Origin: Candidatus Oscillibacter excrementigallinarum
Lineage (GTDB): Bacteria > Bacillota > Clostridia > Oscillospirales > Oscillospiraceae
NCBI GenBank assembly: GCA_019118245.1
Contig: DWZJ01000017.1
Location: 1 to 32,482, forward strand
Length of the DNA: 32,482 nt
Direction: 5' to 3'
Part shown: piece by piece, positions 2,415-25,474 of the stretch
Layout of the letters: every line of letters begins with the position of its first letter
Position numbering within the stretch: the first letter of the stretch is position 1
Translations under genes and position numbers: made by a program
Notes under the pieces: generated by a model
What the model saw: only the letters and a program-made list of their open reading frames with translations
What the model was told of the DNA's origin: nothing
Databases searched by the model: none

Positions 2415-2965
2415 GGTTCTCTCTCCTTTTCCGTGTCCGCCAAAATGCGCTCTGCCGCCGCCCGGGGCGTCAGGTCCGTCACGTCCAGGCGGCGGACGTC
2501 CAGGGCGTCGTACAGCGGCAGATAGGCCAGGCTCCGGTCCACCGCATCCGGCTGCCGGACGCCCGCCCGGATGTCCCCCTCCAGCCGGGCCCGCAGGGCC
2601 TCCGGCGTACAGACCAGTGAGACGGCCCGCAGGGCATACGGCTCCGTCAGGCGGCGGAGCAGGTCCGCCCAGATCTCCCGCCGGTGCAGGACCCAGCAGA
2701 AGATCACCTGGTCATAGGCAGAGCAGCGGAGGAAGCTGTTCAGGAGAAAGGCGATGTTCTCCAGCACCATCTCCCGGGTCTCCTCCGTCACCTGGAAGGG
2801 GTGGGCATCCCAGCACCAGTCCCCGTCCAGGAACACGCTGCGGTCCAGCAGCTGCTGCAGTTGGCGGCAGGCTGTGGTCTTGCCCACGCCCATGGGGCCG
2901 CCGATCACATACAGGCGCTTCCCGCCTTCCCTTTCAGCAGCGCATGCTCTACTCTTCACGCTCAA
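2411..2965 (-). CDS. P-loop nucleotide or small-molecule kinase-like ATPase, start within a heptamer repeat
   Basis: The protein (up to 184 residues) has a clear Walker A loop, GGPMGVGKTT, near residues 22-31, followed by VFLDGDWCWD as the likely substrate-binding or Walker B strand. It looks like the AAA_33/shikimate-kinase-like group of small kinases. The substrate is unknown, and it is not TsaE. There is no ATG in a normal position. The open frame begins with TTG (2963-2965) or GTG (2957-2959) inside a tract of GAAGAGT/TGAGCGT heptamers, so the first 8 or so residues are encoded by repeat DNA. Relatives normally begin only a few residues before the LYVIGG strand, so the native start may have been replaced by the repeat. 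Its stop overlaps the rimI start by four bases. Confidence 0.65.
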   Translation of the reverse strand: MSVKSRACAAEREGGKRLYVIGGPMGVGKTTACRQLQQLLDRSVFLDGDWCWDAHPFQVTEETREMVLENIAFLLNSFLRCSAYDQVIFCWVLHRREIWADLLRRLTEPYALRAVSLVCTPEALRARLEGDIRAGVRQPDAVDRSLAYLPLYDALDVRRLDVTDLTPRAAAERILADTEKEREP

Positions 2966-3023
2966 CTCTTCACGCTCAACTCTTCACGCTGAATTCCTAA
3001 TTCCTCATTCCTAATTCCTAATT
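2951..3023. repeat. Partial heptamer-repeat element between polA and the kinase gene
   Basis: Read on the plus strand, 2951-2990 is a tract of alternating CTCTTCA and CGCTCAA heptamers. 2992-3023 is exactly AATT followed by four heptamers (CCTAATT, CCTCATT, CCTAATT, CCTAATT). The second part equals the 32-nt right inverted end of the full elements at 18962, 23679 and 25063. No left end or hairpin core is present, so this is a solo right end. It fills the whole gap between the polA stop and the kinase start and reaches into the kinase reading frame. Confidence 0.85.
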
Positions 3024-3027
3024 GGCA

Positions 3028-5676
3028 TCAGCCTTTTGCCTCCAGCCAGTTCTTCCCCCAGTGGGCGTCCGCCGTCAGGGGGACGGAGAGGGTCACCACC
3101 CGCTCCATCTCCTCCTTCAACAGCGCCGCGGCCTGCTCCGCCTGGGGCTCCGGGCACTCCACGATCAGCTCGTCGTGGACCTGGAGCACCAGCCGGGCCT
3201 CCGGCAGCTCCCGGCGCAGCCGCTCCCGCACCGCCACCATGGCCAGCTTCATGATGTCCGCCGCCGTGCCCTGGATGGGCATGTTCAGCGCCACCCGCTC
3301 GCCGAAGGAGCGGAGGTTGAAGTTGGAGGACTTCAGCTCCGGCAGGTCCCGCCGCCGGTGGAACAGCGTCTCCACATACCCCTGCTCCTTGGCCTTGGCC
3401 ACGATAGCGTCCATATAGGTCCGGACGCCGGGGAAGGTGGCGAAGTACGCCTCCATATACGCCTTGGCCTCCGCCACGGTGACGCCGATGTCCTGGCTCA
3501 GGGAGAAGGCGGAGATGCCGTAGACGATGCCGAAGTTCACCGCCTTGGCCTGGCGGCGCATCTCGTGGGTCACCTGGTCCGGCGCCACGTGGAACACCTT
3601 GGCCGCCGTCTCCGCGTGGAAGTCCCCGCCGGAGCGGAAGGCGGCGATCATGGCCTCGTCCCCGGCCATGTGGGCCAGCAGCCGCAGCTCGATCTGGGAG
3701 TAGTCCGCGTCCACCAGGACGCAGCCATCGGCGGGAATGAACATCCGCCGGATCTCGCTGCCCAGGTCCGTGCGGGTGGGGATGTTCTGGAGATTGGGCT
3801 CCGTGGAGCTCAGGCGGCCCGTGGCCGTCACCGTCATCTGGAAGCTGGTCCGCACCCGGCCGTCCGGGTCCATGGCCTTCAGCAGCCCGTCGGCATAGGT
3901 GGATTTCAGCTTGGCGTACTGGCGGTACTCCAGCACTGCCCCCACGATGGGAGCCTCGTACCGGAGCTTTTCCAGCACGTCGGCGTTGGTGGACCAGCCG
4001 GTTTTCGTCTTTTTGCCGTGAGGCAGCCCCAGCTTGCCGAACAAAATCTCGCCCAGCTGCTTGGGGGAGTTGATGTTGAACTCCTCCCCCGCTAAATCAT
4101 AGATCTGCTGTTCCAGCTCCGCGCTCCGGACGGCCAGGGCCTCTCCAAAATCTGCCAGGGCCTTGGCATCCACCCGGCAGCCGGCGATCTCCATCTCCGC
4201 CAGAACCCGGCACAGAGGCATCTCCGCCCGTTCAAAGAGGTCCGTGAGGTTCTTCTCCCGCAGTCTGGGGGCCAGGGTCTCGTACAGCGCATCCACAGCA
4301 GAGGTATGGCAGTGGAAGGCCGTCTCCGCCGGGAGCGGGTCCCCCAGGGGGGAGAATGCCTCCGGCTCCAGATGCAGGGGCTTCATCAGCTCTACATTAT
4401 AGTAGGAGACAAACAGCCGCTGCAAATCATAGCTGCCCGCCGTGGCGTCCAGCAGATAGGCAGCCAGGGCCGTGTCGAAGATGAACCCCTCCGCCGGAAG
4501 GTTGTTTTCCAGCAGCGCGCGCATCAGGTCCTTGACATTGTGAGAGACCTTTTTGATGTCAGCGGAGAACAACGCCCGCAGCAGGGCGTTCCAGTCCCCC
4601 TGATACCGGCTGAAAAACAGCTCCGCGGAGACGGCGGTATCTGTCCCGGTCTCACAGTCCACCATGACCCCGGTGAGGTCCGGCAGAGCCAGCAGGGCCA
4701 CATAGTCCGCCCCGCGCCAGAGGTCCAGCAGTTTTTCCGCCTGCTCCGGTGTTGTCACCTGTTCCACCGTCACGGTATATTCCACCGGCTTTTCCACCGT
4801 CGGAGCCGCCGGCGTCAGGCCGAATTTCTCGATGAGCTTGGTGAACTCCAGCTTCAAAAACAGCGGGTAGGCCTCCGGCCCGGGCTGCCGGCGCACATTG
4901 TCCTCCGGCCGGAAGTCCAGGGGCGCGTCGGTGACGATGGTGGCCAGCCAGTAGGACTCCCGGGCGCTCTCCTCCCCCTCCGTCAGTTTTTTGATGGCGG
5001 CGGGCTTGGCGTCGATGTCCGGCAGCTTGGCGTACAGCGTATCGATGCTGCCGTACTGCTGGACCAGGGCCATGGCGGTCTTTTCCCCGATGCCGGGGAC
5101 GCCGGGGATGTTGTCGGAGCTGTCCCCCATCAGGGCCTTCAAATCGATCATGTGGATGGGGGCGAAGCCGTACTGCTCCCGGAAGGCTTCCTCCGTCATG
5201 TCACGGGTTACGGTCTGCCCCATGCGGGTGGACACCAGCTTCACCATGGTGTGGTCGGTGATGAGCTGGAGGGAGTCCTTGTCGCCGGTGACCACCACGC
5301 AGTCCCAGCCCGCCGCCTCGCATTTGCGGGAGATGGTGCCGATCAGGTCGTCGGCCTCCCAGCCCTCCAGCTCGTAGCGGGGGATGTTCAGGGCGTCCAG
5401 CACCTCTTTCAGCACCGGCACCTGCATCCGCAGCTCCTCCGGCATGGGCTTGCGGGTGGCCTTGTAGGTCTCCGCCGCCTGGTGGCGGAAGGTGGGGGCG
5501 TGGACGTCAAAGGTGACGCACAAAGCGTCCGGCGCCTCCTCCCCCTCCAGCCGGAGGAGGGTGGTGAGGAAGCCGAAGATGGCGTGGGTGTAGAGCCCGT
5601 CCCGTGTGGTGAGGGGGCGGATGCCGTAGTAGGCCCGGTTGAGGATGCTGTTGCCGTCGATGACCATGAGCTTCAT
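3028..5676 (-). CDS. polA: DNA polymerase I
   Basis: PolA removes RNA primers and fills gaps during lagging-strand synthesis and repair. The 882-residue protein has three regions. The N-terminal 5'-3' exonuclease (about 1-285) shows DGNSILNRAYYG, TGDKDSLQL and MGDSSDNIPGVPGIGEKTA. A middle 3'-5' exonuclease-like domain (about 300-470) follows. The polymerase domain has TGRLSSTEPNLQNIP, motif A DADYSQIELR, motif B RRQAKAVNFGIVYG and motif C VHDE (residues 833-836). In the middle domain the first strand reads YVALLALPD, without the DxE metal pair of proofreading enzymes, so proofreading is probably lost, as in Bacillus PolA. The ATG at 5674-5676 has AGGAGG 8 bases upstream; an open frame runs 45 codons further but lacks a site. 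A strong promoter lies at 5721-5749. Confidence 0.97.
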   Translation of the reverse strand: MKLMVIDGNSILNRAYYGIRPLTTRDGLYTHAIFGFLTTLLRLEGEEAPDALCVTFDVHAPTFRHQAAETYKATRKPMPEELRMQVPVLKEVLDALNIPRYELEGWEADDLIGTISRKCEAAGWDCVVVTGDKDSLQLITDHTMVKLVSTRMGQTVTRDMTEEAFREQYGFAPIHMIDLKALMGDSSDNIPGVPGIGEKTAMALVQQYGSIDTLYAKLPDIDAKPAAIKKLTEGEESARESYWLATIVTDAPLDFRPEDNVRRQPGPEAYPLFLKLEFTKLIEKFGLTPAAPTVEKPVEYTVTVEQVTTPEQAEKLLDLWRGADYVALLALPDLTGVMVDCETGTDTAVSAELFFSRYQGDWNALLRALFSADIKKVSHNVKDLMRALLENNLPAEGFIFDTALAAYLLDATAGSYDLQRLFVSYYNVELMKPLHLEPEAFSPLGDPLPAETAFHCHTSAVDALYETLAPRLREKNLTDLFERAEMPLCRVLAEMEIAGCRVDAKALADFGEALAVRSAELEQQIYDLAGEEFNINSPKQLGEILFGKLGLPHGKKTKTGWSTNADVLEKLRYEAPIVGAVLEYRQYAKLKSTYADGLLKAMDPDGRVRTSFQMTVTATGRLSSTEPNLQNIPTRTDLGSEIRRMFIPADGCVLVDADYSQIELRLLAHMAGDEAMIAAFRSGGDFHAETAAKVFHVAPDQVTHEMRRQAKAVNFGIVYGISAFSLSQDIGVTVAEAKAYMEAYFATFPGVRTYMDAIVAKAKEQGYVETLFHRRRDLPELKSSNFNLRSFGERVALNMPIQGTAADIMKLAMVAVRERLRRELPEARLVLQVHDELIVECPEPQAEQAAALLKEEMERVVTLSVPLTADAHWGKNWLEAKG

Positions 5677-6363: not shown

Positions 6364-6366
6364 TTT

Positions 6367-6398
6367 TCATTCCTAATTCCTAACTCCTCATTCCTCAT
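6367..6398. repeat. Solo 32-nt heptamer end
   Basis: CATT is followed by four heptamers (CCTAATT, CCTAACT, CCTCATT, CCTCATT). Length and phase match the right inverted ends of the full elements. No left end or core is present. Confidence 0.75.
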
Positions 6399-6434
6399 TG
6401 ATTTTCTCTGCCGTTTGCGGCACAAGGAGGCACT

Positions 6435-6821: not shown

Positions 6822-6831
6822 GCCACGCTAT

Positions 6832-6976
6832 GAAGAGTTGAGAGTGGAGAGTGAAGAGTTAAGATGCGGAATTCGCCGGAGGCGAATGATTTCAAATCGT
6901 TCCGCCACAGGCGGAACACGTCATCTCCGCTCTTCACTCTCAACTCTTCACTCTACTCTTTGCTCTTCACTCTCTT
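6832..6976. repeat. Heptamer element with two-hairpin core between psiE-like and PAP2 genes
   Basis: The left arm (6832-6861) is a run of GAAGAGT/TGAGAGT/GGAGAGT heptamers. The right arm (about 6930-6976) is the inverted type (CTCTTCA, CTCTCAA). The core has two short hairpins, TTCGCC/GGCGAA and GTTCCGCC/GGCGGAAC, separated by TGATTTCAAATC. The same second hairpin and the ATTTCAA spacer occur in the elements at 18962 and 23679. The right arm overlaps the 3' end of the PAP2 coding frame. Confidence 0.8.
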
Positions 6977-7686: not shown

Positions 7687-7866
7687 ATCGCTCAGATAGA
7701 GGCGCGGCGTCCATCAGTACCGCTCCGGCAAGGCCAGGCAGCCGCCGGGTGGGAAAGGGTCCGCCGCCGAAGTGCCGGGACGATGCCTGTCCTTCCGGTG
7801 CTGGGCCGTCAGGGAATACCTGCCGGACTGTCACAAACCTTTGTGAAGCGCTATCGATGGCTGTTC
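7687..7866 (+). promoter_or_regulatory. Lysine riboswitch (L-box)
   Basis: The leader carries the conserved L-box elements in order: AGATAGAGGCGCG at 7694-7706, the CAGTA segment, GGGAAAGGG near 7751, CGCCGAAG near 7766, GCCGGACTGTCAC near 7822-7834, and GTGAAGCGCTATC ending at 7855. GATAG (7695-7699) can pair with CTATC (7851-7855) to close the P1 helix. A terminator follows at 7905. In this class lysine binding favours the terminator, so the downstream importer would be off when lysine is plentiful. Confidence 0.9.
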
Positions 7867-14161: not shown

Positions 14162-15088
14162 ATGGAACCCTATTTCGACATCGTCATCGTGGGCGGCGGC
14201 CCGGCCGGGCTCACCGCCGCCATCTACGCCCGCCGGGCGGGCAGGTCTGTGCTGCTGCTGGAGAAGGAGGGCTTCGGCGGGCAGATCGCCTCCGCCCCCA
14301 AGGTGGAGAACTTCCCCGGCTTCTCCGCCATCTCCGGCGCGGAGCTCGCCGACCGGCTGTTCAGCCAGGCGGAGGCCCTGGGGGCCCGGCTGGAGCTGGA
14401 GGAGGTGCTGGAGATCCGGGACGGGGCCCCCAAGCGGGTGGTCACCGACTACGGCGCCTATCTGGCCGGGGCGGTGATCCTGGCCGCCGGGATGCGCCGC
14501 CGGACCCTGGGCCTGCCCGGGGAGGATCATCTGGCGGGGATCTCCTTCTGCGCCGTGTGCGACGGGGCCTTTTACGCGGGGCAGGACGTGGCCGTGGCCG
14601 GCGGCGGCAGCGCCGCCCTGCAGGACGCCCTGTATTTGGCGGACCTCTGCCGCCATGTGACCGTCCTCCACCGGCGGGCGGACTTCCGGGCGGACCCCAT
14701 CCTGGTGGAGGAGGCCCTGGGCCGGGCCAACCTGACCCTGCTGCCCTCCACGGTGGTGGAAGGGCTGGAGGGCACGGACCACCTCACCAGCCTGACGGTG
14801 CGGAGCACCGCCGACGGCACAGTCTCCCACCTGCCGGCGGCCGCCCTGTTCCAGGCGGTGGGCCACCTGCCGGAGAGCGGCCTGGCCCGGTCCCTGGGGG
14901 TCCCGGTGGACGGGGCGGGCTTCATCGCCGCCGGGGAGGACTGCGCCACCCCGGTGCCCGGCGTGTTCGCGGCCGGGGACGTGCGGGCCAAGGCCGTCCG
15001 CCAGCTGACCACCGCCTGCGCCGACGGCGCCGTGGCCGCCCTGGCGGCCTGCGCGGCGCACGAGCACGCTTATCCTGCAAAAGCGTGA
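14162..15088 (+). CDS. trxB: Thioredoxin-reductase-like FAD/NAD(P)H disulfide reductase
   Basis: The 308-residue flavoprotein has the FAD-binding GGGPAGLTAAIYARRAG near the start, the redox-active CAVC (Cys130 and Cys133), a second dinucleotide fold GGGSAALQDALYLADL, the NADPH-phosphate-contacting HRRADFR, and the C-terminal GVFAAGDVRAKAVRQL. This is the low-molecular-weight TrxB layout. ATG at 14162 has GAGG 8 bases upstream; the long upstream open frame is a shadow of nrdD. Its place right after nrdD suggests it reduces the redoxin domain fused to NrdD (inference). The TGA stop is formed where coding DNA meets a GTGAAGAG heptamer, so the C-terminus abuts a repeat element. Confidence 0.92.
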   Translation: MEPYFDIVIVGGGPAGLTAAIYARRAGRSVLLLEKEGFGGQIASAPKVENFPGFSAISGAELADRLFSQAEALGARLELEEVLEIRDGAPKRVVTDYGAYLAGAVILAAGMRRRTLGLPGEDHLAGISFCAVCDGAFYAGQDVAVAGGGSAALQDALYLADLCRHVTVLHRRADFRADPILVEEALGRANLTLLPSTVVEGLEGTDHLTSLTVRSTADGTVSHLPAAALFQAVGHLPESGLARSLGVPVDGAGFIAAGEDCATPVPGVFAAGDVRAKAVRQLTTACADGAVAALAACAAHEHAYPAKA

Positions 15089-15287
15089 AGAGTGGAGAGT
15101 TGAGAGTGGAGAGTGAAGAGATCTCCGATGCAGGGCCACACTGGCAAAGAAAGACGCTGGCGGCTGTAAACAGCTGCCAGCGTCTTTGCCGCAAACCCGT
15201 ATGAGGAGCGGGAGCCGGGGCGCGCACCCATATCTCCACTCTCAACTCTTCACTCTCAACTCTTCACTCTCAACTCTTCACGCGCAA
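15082..15287. repeat. Heptamer element with a large hairpin core between trxB and the SLH gene
   Basis: The left arm (about 15084-15120) has GAGAGTG/GAGAGTT/GAAGAGT heptamers. The right arm (about 15230-15285) has the inverted CACTCTC/AACTCTT type. The core differs from the others: one large hairpin with AAAGACGCTGGC (15150-15161) pairing with GCCAGCGTCTTT (15176-15187). The element separates two convergent genes and may act as a shared terminator. Confidence 0.8.
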
Positions 15288-18961: not shown

Positions 18962-19120
18962 AATGAGGAATTAGGAATGAGGAATTAGGAATTGTGGTGT
19001 TCCGCCGCAGGCGGAACGATTTCAATGAGTCCGGCTCCGCCGGACACATCAGCTCCTATCTCCACTCTCAACTCTCCACTCTTCAAAAAATTCCTAACTC
19101 CTAATTCCTAATTTCTAATT
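18962..19120. repeat. Heptamer-TIR element with two-hairpin core between purE and purC
   Basis: The left end (18962-18993) is AATGAGG, AATTAGG, AATGAGG, AATTAGG, AATT. The right end (19089-19120) is AATT, CCTAACT, CCTAATT, CCTAATT, TCTAATT. Each is exactly 32 nt. The core opens GTGGTGT and has hairpins GTTCCGCC/GGCGGAAC and GTCCGGC/GCCGGAC separated by GATTTCAATGA. A short CACTCTC-type tract precedes the right end. No reading frame is present. The same plan is seen at 23679-23865. Confidence 0.88.
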
Positions 19121-23678: not shown

Positions 23679-23865
23679 AATGAGGAATGAGGAGTTAGGA
23701 ATTAGGAATTGTGGTGTCCGGCAAAGCCGGACGAATTTCAATCGTTCCGCCTGCGGCGGAACCCCTCAACTCCTATCTCCTATCTCTTATCTCCTATCTC
23801 CACTCTCAACTCTCCACTCTTCACTCTCCAAAAAATTCCTAATTCCTAACTCCGAATCCCTAATT
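23679..23865. repeat. Heptamer-TIR element with two-hairpin core between the cyclohydrolase gene and purH
   Basis: The left end (23679-23710) is AATGAGG, AATGAGG, AGTTAGG, AATTAGG, AATT. The right end (23834-23865) is AATT, CCTAATT, CCTAACT, CCGAATC, CCTAATT. Both are 32 nt. The core starts GTGGTGT, then hairpins GTCCGGC/GCCGGAC and GTTCCGCC/GGCGGAAC around GAATTTCAATC. Compared with 18962, the two hairpins are in swapped order. A long CCTATCT/CCACTCT tract with the same 7-base period precedes the right end. Confidence 0.88.
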
Positions 23866-25062: not shown

Positions 25063-25474
25063 AATTAGGAATTAGGAATGAGGAGTTAGGAATTGAAGGA
25101 GAACGAGGTCAGGCGCAAAAGCCTGTTGTTTGCCAGACGCATCGTCATGCTTTATCAATACCTATGTGAGGAGAAAAGGGAATATGTGCTTTCCAAGCAG
25201 CTTCTCCGCAGCGGTACCAGCATCGGCGCCAACATCTCCGAGGCGCAGTACGCAAGCAGCCGAAAGGATTTTCTCAACAAGCTCTATATTGCCTTGAAGG
25301 AATCCGCCGAGACCTTGTACTGGCTGGAACTGCTATACTCATGCGATTACTTGTCTTCCCCGGAGTACAAATCTCTCTATCAGGACTGTGAGGAACTTCG
25401 CAAACTCCTCTCCTCCATCACCAAATCCATTCGAGACGGGAAAATTCCTAATTCCTAACTCCTAATTCCTCATT
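25063..25474 (+). mobile_element. Heptamer-TIR element carrying an S23/IVP-type four-helix-bundle gene
   Basis: The element spans 412 bases between purH and purD. The left end (25063-25094) is AATTAGG, AATTAGG, AATGAGG, AGTTAGG, AATT. The right end (25443-25474) is AATT, CCTAATT, CCTAACT, CCTAATT, CCTCATT. Both are 32 nt and inverted, in the same register as the non-coding elements at 18962 and 23679. Here the core is a single gene. Its start codon lies in the left end and its stop codon in the right end. The GC content of the interior is visibly lower (about half) than the flanking purine genes. I see no transposase and no target duplication. The layout resembles intervening sequences in 23S rRNA, in which stem-forming ends surround an S23 protein gene. 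Confidence 0.75.
25093..25458 (+). CDS. Four-helix-bundle protein of the S23/IVP (23S rRNA intervening-sequence) family
   Basis: The 121-residue protein has the diagnostic run LLRSGTSIGANISEA (residues 38-51) with SSRKDFLNKLYIALKESAETLYWLELL, features of the PF05635/TIGR02436 family found in 23S rRNA intervening sequences and related to the Avd accessory protein of diversity-generating retroelements. Family members form pentameric basic four-helix bundles that bind nucleic acid; the cellular role is unknown. The start is TTG at 25093, spanning the end of the left repeat, with GAGGAG (25080-25085) 7 bases upstream, also made by repeat units. The last residues IPNS and the TAA are encoded by the right repeat. 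No reverse transcriptase or other retroelement part is nearby. It has no evident link to purine synthesis. Confidence 0.9.
   Translation: MKENEVRRKSLLFARRIVMLYQYLCEEKREYVLSKQLLRSGTSIGANISEAQYASSRKDFLNKLYIALKESAETLYWLELLYSCDYLSSPEYKSLYQDCEELRKLLSSITKSIRDGKIPNS

Follow-up and report, generated by a model that had tools for sequence, protein, structure and literature searches.

An S23 four-helix-bundle gene between inverted heptamer arrays in an Oscillibacter purine operon: a candidate two-part selfish element

The junction between purH and purD in Candidatus Oscillibacter excrementigallinarum is occupied by a 412-bp unit in which a 32-nt heptamer array, an S23/IVP gene and a second, inverted 32-nt array follow one another, and the question raised by this locus is what such a gene is doing between such ends inside a purine operon. 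We analysed the unit within the window, the whole stretch of 32,482 nucleotides in which it lies. An earlier note had described the arrangement, and this description held: the arms are at 25063-25094 and 25443-25474 and the gene between them matches PF05635 at 106 bits. The left arm (25063-25094, + strand) reads AATT-AGG-AATT-AGG-AATG-AGG-AGTT-AGG-AATT and contains five inward core motifs, and the right arm (25443-25474, - strand) is an inverted array of the same unit with five core motifs pointing inward on that strand. The open reading frame (25093-25458, + strand, 121 aa, TTG start) overlaps both arms, with the first two bases of its start codon in the left one and its TAA stop in the right one, and a Shine-Dalgarno-like AGGAG (25081-25085), also inside the left arm, precedes the TTG with a spacing of 7 nt. 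The unit has a GC content of 47.3%, against 66.0% for the window, and its arms could pair into a stem of about 32 bp with mismatches. Arrays of three units matched 31 times in the window and not once in any of 200 simple shuffles. The unit has terminal inverted repeats, as MITEs and insertion sequences do, but S23 is its sole coding content and no known transposase was found in it. It stands in the purH-purD spacer and outside rRNA, since an Rfam search found no rRNA in the window; the only Rfam match there was a lysine riboswitch (7689-7861, + strand, 99.9 bits).

The protein itself was assigned to its family by wide margins, scoring 106.2 bits against PF05635 (cut-off 33.8) and 112.2 bits against TIGR02436 (cut-off 24), and it is the single PF05635 match in the genome (an assembly of 108 contigs, 95.8% complete). 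No known nuclease or transposase family of Pfam or NCBIfam was matched. The AlphaFold2 model (pLDDT 93.9) consists of four helices and superposes on the solved relative 2rld with a TM-score of 0.91 (E 2e-36 by sequence) and on 2gsc with 0.77. Both entries hold five chains, and the title of the paper describing 2gsc speaks of 'five four-helix bundles'; by analogy with these relatives, the S23 of the window would also be a pentamer. The dN/dS ratio of S23 was 0.04-0.13 in the seven of eight pairs for which it could be computed, and the gene is under strong purifying selection.

The gene unit has gene-free relatives. Two of them, E5 (18962-19120, arms 18962-18993 and 19089-19120) and E6 (23679-23865, upstream of purH, arms 23679-23710 and 23834-23865), lie in the same operon and have arms of 32 nt in the same register as those of the gene unit, as the earlier note had remarked. 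Each contains two hairpins, E5 with an inner GAGTGGA-type array and E6 with extra arrays of other units in its interior. E4 (15085-15281, or 15091-15275 in another delimitation) has GAGTGGA/GAGTGAA-type arms and E3 (6831-6973, or 6836-6952) GAGTGAA-type arms, and single arrays with no partner array found are located at 2946-3023 and 6365-6399. In the examined part of this genome (G000) there were 16 paired elements, the gene unit and 15 gene-free ones, four of the latter being exactly 121 bp long and composed of arm, two hairpins and arm; in the whole genome, three-unit arrays gave 222 matches and a control pattern 3.

Gene-free elements were present or absent at the same place between G000 and its relatives, and at two sites the arm type differed in G002. 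E6 was present in G002 and G005 and absent in G003, G085 and G031. E4 was not at the orthologous site in G002, G005 and G085, and its flanks were not found in the stretches from G003 and G031. The E3 site carried AATTAGG-type arms in G002 and no element in G005 and G085, and the E5 site in G002 carried an element with GATAAGA-type arms and two hairpins in the opposite order. Such a swap of hairpins between E5 and its G002 counterpart (L274) could result from inversion of the core within its arms or from a fresh insertion. Around 2900-3060 of the window, G005 and G085 have about 700 bp of other sequence in place of the arrays. Comparisons of filled and empty sites among relatives revealed no clean integration site, and no target-site duplication was seen at the purH-purD unit (E7) or at E6, where filled and empty sites differ in their flanking bases.

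How general the arms are was assessed on S23 copies of three origins: the genus genomes, 72 loci on named genome contigs, and a further 25 genomes, many of them multi-copy. After removal of duplicates 128 copies were left, including 50 of the 71 named-contig loci other than L032. An inverted repeat across the gene with a score of at least 13 was found in 90 of the 128 copies and in none of the 128 when one flank was shuffled. The distinct close set, from which weak relatives were excluded, comprised 114 copies from several phyla; 90 had the inverted repeat, 101 a periodic array, 86 both and 105 either, and nine had neither. Scored with identical criteria, 550 control windows from 47 of the loci gave 2 inverted repeats, 16 arrays, none with both and 18 with either. 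The earlier note had named cyanobacteria as a group in which to look for such flanking repeats. A second set was drawn from 98 genomes of the phylum of a cyanobacterium (centred on G110); the 29 loci with the highest scores were used, and 25 of them had inverted arms, compared with 0 of 29 after shuffling. On named plasmids, sampled as 8 of the 26 records with a PF05635 match, each of the eight copies was flanked by a 7-nt array on one side or both, and six had an inverted repeat scoring at least 13; neither arms nor arrays were found at the S23 copy of one phage contig of the two with a match. Type I restriction genes, a helicase/DNA methyltransferase operon, cas2/cas1 and genes of the DUF1156 / Swt1 family were neighbours of four plasmid copies (L318, L322, L323, L325).

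When the 72 named-contig loci were split by E-value, arms or arrays accompanied 35 of the 38 strong PF05635 relatives and only 1 of the 34 weak ones, so the arms are not a feature of the whole family. The invariant polar residues Q36, S43, N47, E50 and E73 were considered as a mark of the armed clade and discarded, being uninformative about arms because the arm-less group keeps them too; of the second set, 20 of 29 loci entered this comparison, and its contrast is flattering, as four strong relatives (L062, L066, L068, L078) had been placed by hand in the divergent group. The divergent PF05635 genes may include Avd proteins of diversity-generating retroelements: a motif scan gave YxDD-like matches at 4 of 21 of their loci. 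Our results support the view that gene and repeats form one unit, with many different repeats and across phyla, and suggest that S23 with its arms is a widespread element and not a local curiosity. The proposal of the earlier note that the gene belongs with a repeat family was thereby strengthened, gene-free relatives being abundant as well.

The repeat differs from copy to copy. In a Peribacter genome of 1.1 Mb (G108), 20 of whose 21 PF05635 matches were examined (L194-L213), ten copies had a heptamer consensus and these were ten different heptamers; among the remaining copies were some with periods of 6, 8 or 9. In total, 77 loci gave 56 distinct heptamer classes, which, when aligned by rotation and strand, share an ARTB core (A in 52, R in 54, T in 45 and a base other than A in all 56) with an information content of 4.48 bits, against a maximum of 4.30 in 40 nulls. 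In 116 of 138 arms the core is directed inward. Among 90 arms of 29-36 nt, the most frequent first base is motif position 1 (39 arms) and the most frequent last base position 3 or 4 (45 arms), so that an arm is approximately (ARTB-N3)x4-ARTB, that is, five motifs. If this number is kept, arm length must grow with the period, and the medians were 29, 33, 35 and 41 nt for periods 6, 7, 8 and 9 (n = 3, 183, 35 and 7), where five motifs predict 28, 32, 36 and 40 nt. The modal length moved from 31-33 nt at period 7 to 35-37 nt at period 8 (p 3e-7, with the arms of one locus not being independent), and in the combined set the period-8 arms peaked at 35-36 nt. Against the five-motif scaling stands the period-8 median of the first set taken by itself, 28 nt (n = 15); adding the second set and extending arrays less strictly raised it to 35 nt. 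Genomes of around 2 Mb in the cyanobacterial phylum set often show period 8 (L285, L287, L288, L291, L296, L298, L304-L306).

Unit and protein appear to change together. Distances between proteins and between units were correlated (r 0.30, permutation p 0.0005, a value from which relatedness was not removed), and within the genus the S23 alleles located after purH, which are 79-97% identical, share unit types: AATTAGG in G000, G002 and G031, AGATAGG in G043 and G049, GAGTGRA in G047 and G065, and an AGATAAG-like unit in G073 and G041. An exception is G066, with AATTAGG arms, an S23 only 54-62% like the others and a gene away from purH-purD. The PurD of G031 is 87% identical to those of G049, G043, G073 and G047 and 83% to that of G000, with which G031 shares its unit type; gene and arms therefore have a history of their own.

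Whether the arms are conserved as a stem was approached by permutation of units. A first test gave 1605 matches where 1439 were expected (63 loci), but its register had been selected for the most matches; when every permutation was allowed its own best register, nothing of the effect was left (890.5 matches for an expectation of 893.0, 43 loci). Arm pairing as a conserved feature was dropped for this reason: unit variants are not mirrored between the arms, and their pairing is not specially conserved. Because variants are not mirrored, the arrays act like two independent protein sites and not like an obligate stem, and the suggestion of the earlier note that the bundle protein recognises a paired heptamer stem found no support in this fair test.

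Within Oscillibacter the arrays follow the gene. At least ten three-unit array matches were found in 11 of 11 S23-positive genomes and in 8 of the 75 other genomes of the genus (Fisher 3e-9), the counts being 11-222 in the former and 0-5 in 67 of the latter. In G077, one of the eight array-rich others, a truncated S23 gene, of which the tail is left, and an arm lie at a contig edge immediately ahead of purD. No S23 was found in G003, G005 and G069, which are array-rich (G069 is 56% complete), and G074, also array-rich, has a PF05635 match of the weak type only. In 8 of 12 genomes the most frequent type of array was that of the S23 arms (p 0.014; p 0.005 for the share of the own type); a match had been expected in every genome, but it fails in G027, G041, G049 and G077.

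Lower GC content had been taken in the earlier note as a sign that the unit had moved in. A recent horizontal arrival at purH-purD is not supported by the conservation of the junction and by silent-site divergence. In 11 of the 12 S23-positive Oscillibacter genomes the unit is found at purH-purD or, where a contig ends there, immediately behind purH or ahead of purD, G066 being the only one with it elsewhere, and S23 dS exceeded purD dS in 14 of 15 computed pairs (the exception is G000-G002; six further pairs were saturated), although the silent-site rate of purD may be slowed by codon bias. From these comparisons the gene unit is probably old at this place. The close relatives G003 and G005 lack the S23 gene among comparison genomes that include many incomplete assemblies, and the empty purH-purD site of G003 may be a loss. 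The interpretation of the earlier note is supported in part, for the gene and repeat unit and for the resemblance to intervening sequences, and finds no support for recent arrival and recognition of a paired stem. The junction comparison covered 29 of 30 junctions, L123 giving no motif. Two junctions without S23 (L125 of G072 and L129 of G075) seemingly hold a different small open reading frame, and five others (L113, L122, L131, L119, L107) hold another hairpin-rich repeat, in several cases with ACCAGTGAC and TTTGCC..GGCAAA.

With a probability of roughly 0.6, we consider the unit a member of a widespread two-part selfish element, in which an S23 homopentamer recognises the end repeats of its own element and also serves gene-free elements. 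One subunit of the homopentamer would bind each ARTB core motif of the tandem repeat at either end, and one subunit per motif would account for both the approximately five motifs per arm and the growth of arm length with the period. The same S23 would serve in trans those gene-free elements that share its arms and have lost the gene or never had it. By holding or pairing the two inverted arrays, S23 would enable host enzymes to copy or move the element, and the array over the start region would fit a translational self-limitation of S23. Binding by S23, its pentameric state, DNA rather than RNA as its target, and movement and its route are inferred.

RAYT genes encode a Y1 tyrosine transposase and occur as one gene at a conserved place, flanked by the repeat. 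The gene-free inverted doublets in trans, the REPINs, are many (PMC3116915), and the 15 gene-free paired elements sharing the repeat of the S23 gene resemble them in this. Unlike RAYT, the gene of the window matches S23-type families only; its arms are tandem arrays and not single palindromes, and S23 is multi-copy in other genomes. By analogy, the unit is best read as similar to REPIN-RAYT in its working, with a putatively pentameric S23 in the place of the transposase. The resemblance to 23S rRNA intervening sequences (IVS) put forward in the earlier note was borne out by the 428-nt S23 element of Coxiella burnetii, which has a 28-bp terminal stem cut by RNase III and tandem GACAGAT heptamers directly before its ORF (PMC4990558). 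In both cases an S23 ORF lies between complementary ends of about 28-32 bp, but the unit of the window is in an mRNA spacer, both of its arms are arrays of units, the unit varies from copy to copy and a large gene-free population has the same arms. The element would work like REPIN-RAYT and looks like an IVS, and is neither in full. Among the matches listed from open-licence PubMed Central, the Coxiella IVS was the one case in which a paper linked an S23 gene with tandem repeats of this kind.

Other explanations have to be weighed against a selfish element. S23 could be an RNA regulator that binds the repeats in mRNA and controls translation or stability, with gene-free arrays as regulatory sites in operons and the inverted arm either incidental or the end of an RNA structure. 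The Shine-Dalgarno-like AGGAG and the part of the start codon inside the left arm speak for such a role, as does the proposal by MacGregor of translational regulation by TAACTGA arrays upstream of start codons (PMC4679880). The four-helix fold is also shared with Avd of diversity-generating retroelements, including the Avd chains of one of their ribonucleoproteins (4dwl, 8ub7; TM 0.74, Foldseek E about 0.2), but Avd acts in a system with a reverse transcriptase (PMC10053308), whereas the unit of the window encodes only S23. As an RNA site one array would suffice, and two inverted arrays with inward motifs fit the ends of an element better; the gene-free elements vary in presence between close relatives, and the unit variants are unmirrored between the arms. 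Taken together, we regard regulation at the RNA level as unlikely, with some weight left to it.

An intervening sequence acting at the RNA level, in which the transcript folds with its arms paired, the stem is cut by RNase III and the insertion is rendered harmless, with S23 as by-product or helper, draws on the Coxiella anatomy and cleavage and on the stem of about 32 bp that the window's arms could form. We judge it highly improbable here: mirrored conservation of unit variants is missing, S23 is under strong purifying selection, and among 326 S23 loci one had a single 23S-like motif and none had two, in what is a weak test since many stretches are short. S23 might also be a mere passenger of a repeat family whose movement is due to slippage or to an unrelated transposase, its association being historical; this would agree with the lack of any enzyme family match and with array-rich genomes in which no S23 was found. 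It is very improbable nonetheless, because the same layout recurs around S23 with different units in many phyla, the units differ among the paralogues of one genome and the array type matches in trans, none of which a passenger would lead one to expect. Some bacteria abound in heptameric repeats (PMC4692102), and simple-sequence repeats might lie near a small gene by chance, a reading to which we give practically no credit in view of the 86 of 114 close copies with both features against 0 of 550 control windows, the inverted-repeat score reached by 90 of 128 copies and by none of 128 shuffles, and the 25 of 29 loci of the second set.

The preferred reading, of a selfish element with S23 as reader of its ends, also touches repeats described separately. 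TAACTGA arrays are known from Beggiatoaceae, cyanobacteria and Bacteroidetes; binding proteins have been suggested for them but none is proven, and their author considered that a TAACTGA-binding protein could itself be the mobile part (PMC4679880). That paper discusses other candidate proteins and, as far as a term search of its text extends, no mobile element and no S23. In our data S23 genes of G205 and G207 have TAACTGA as right arm and a CAGTAAT variant as left arm; with variants TAACTGA forms both arms of S23 in G110, and L245, from a Bacteroidetes genome, has the TAACTGA unit once rotation and strand are allowed for. The three highest TAACTGA counts among the 98 genomes, 464, 323 and 174 matches, all fell within the trio G110, G205 and G207. 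PF05635 was found in 10 of 11 genomes with TAACTGA arrays and in 41 of 87 without (p 0.008), in a sample whose centre, G110, had been chosen for its S23; G132 has such arrays and no PF05635, and the arms of the window itself are not TAACTGA. The GGGAATC and GGGGATT arrays of Xanthomonas and Nostoc are likewise heptameric, mostly of four units and mostly intergenic, with 70 and 75 convergent pairs (PMC4692102). They were linked there to G-quadruplexes, and a term search of that text found no mention of S23; the Xanthomonas unit, written as AATCGGG, fits the ARTB core of S23 arms. It is possible, though doubtful as yet, that 6-9-nt repeats such as TAACTGA, GGGAATC, the cyanobacterial STRRs and the Oscillibacter heptamers are the ends of a single superfamily of S23 selfish elements, in which an S23 pentamer would read one unit per subunit, the unit would change with the protein and the DNA would be mobilised without a transposase of its own.

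Heptameric repeat families that have been described separately would in this way gain a candidate partner protein and a structural rule of about five core motifs per arm, which concerns in particular the repeats of PMC4679880 and PMC4692102, for which those papers, as far as consulted, give no proven binding protein. If the superfamily is real, pairs of S23 and repeat would be a natural set of orthogonal repeat readers, comparable to programmable rings, and if each S23 reads its own unit, the paralogues of one genome would be ready-made orthogonal repeat-binding rings. The analysis also offers a candidate function for a protein family that was named after the odd case of its insertions in 23S rRNA.
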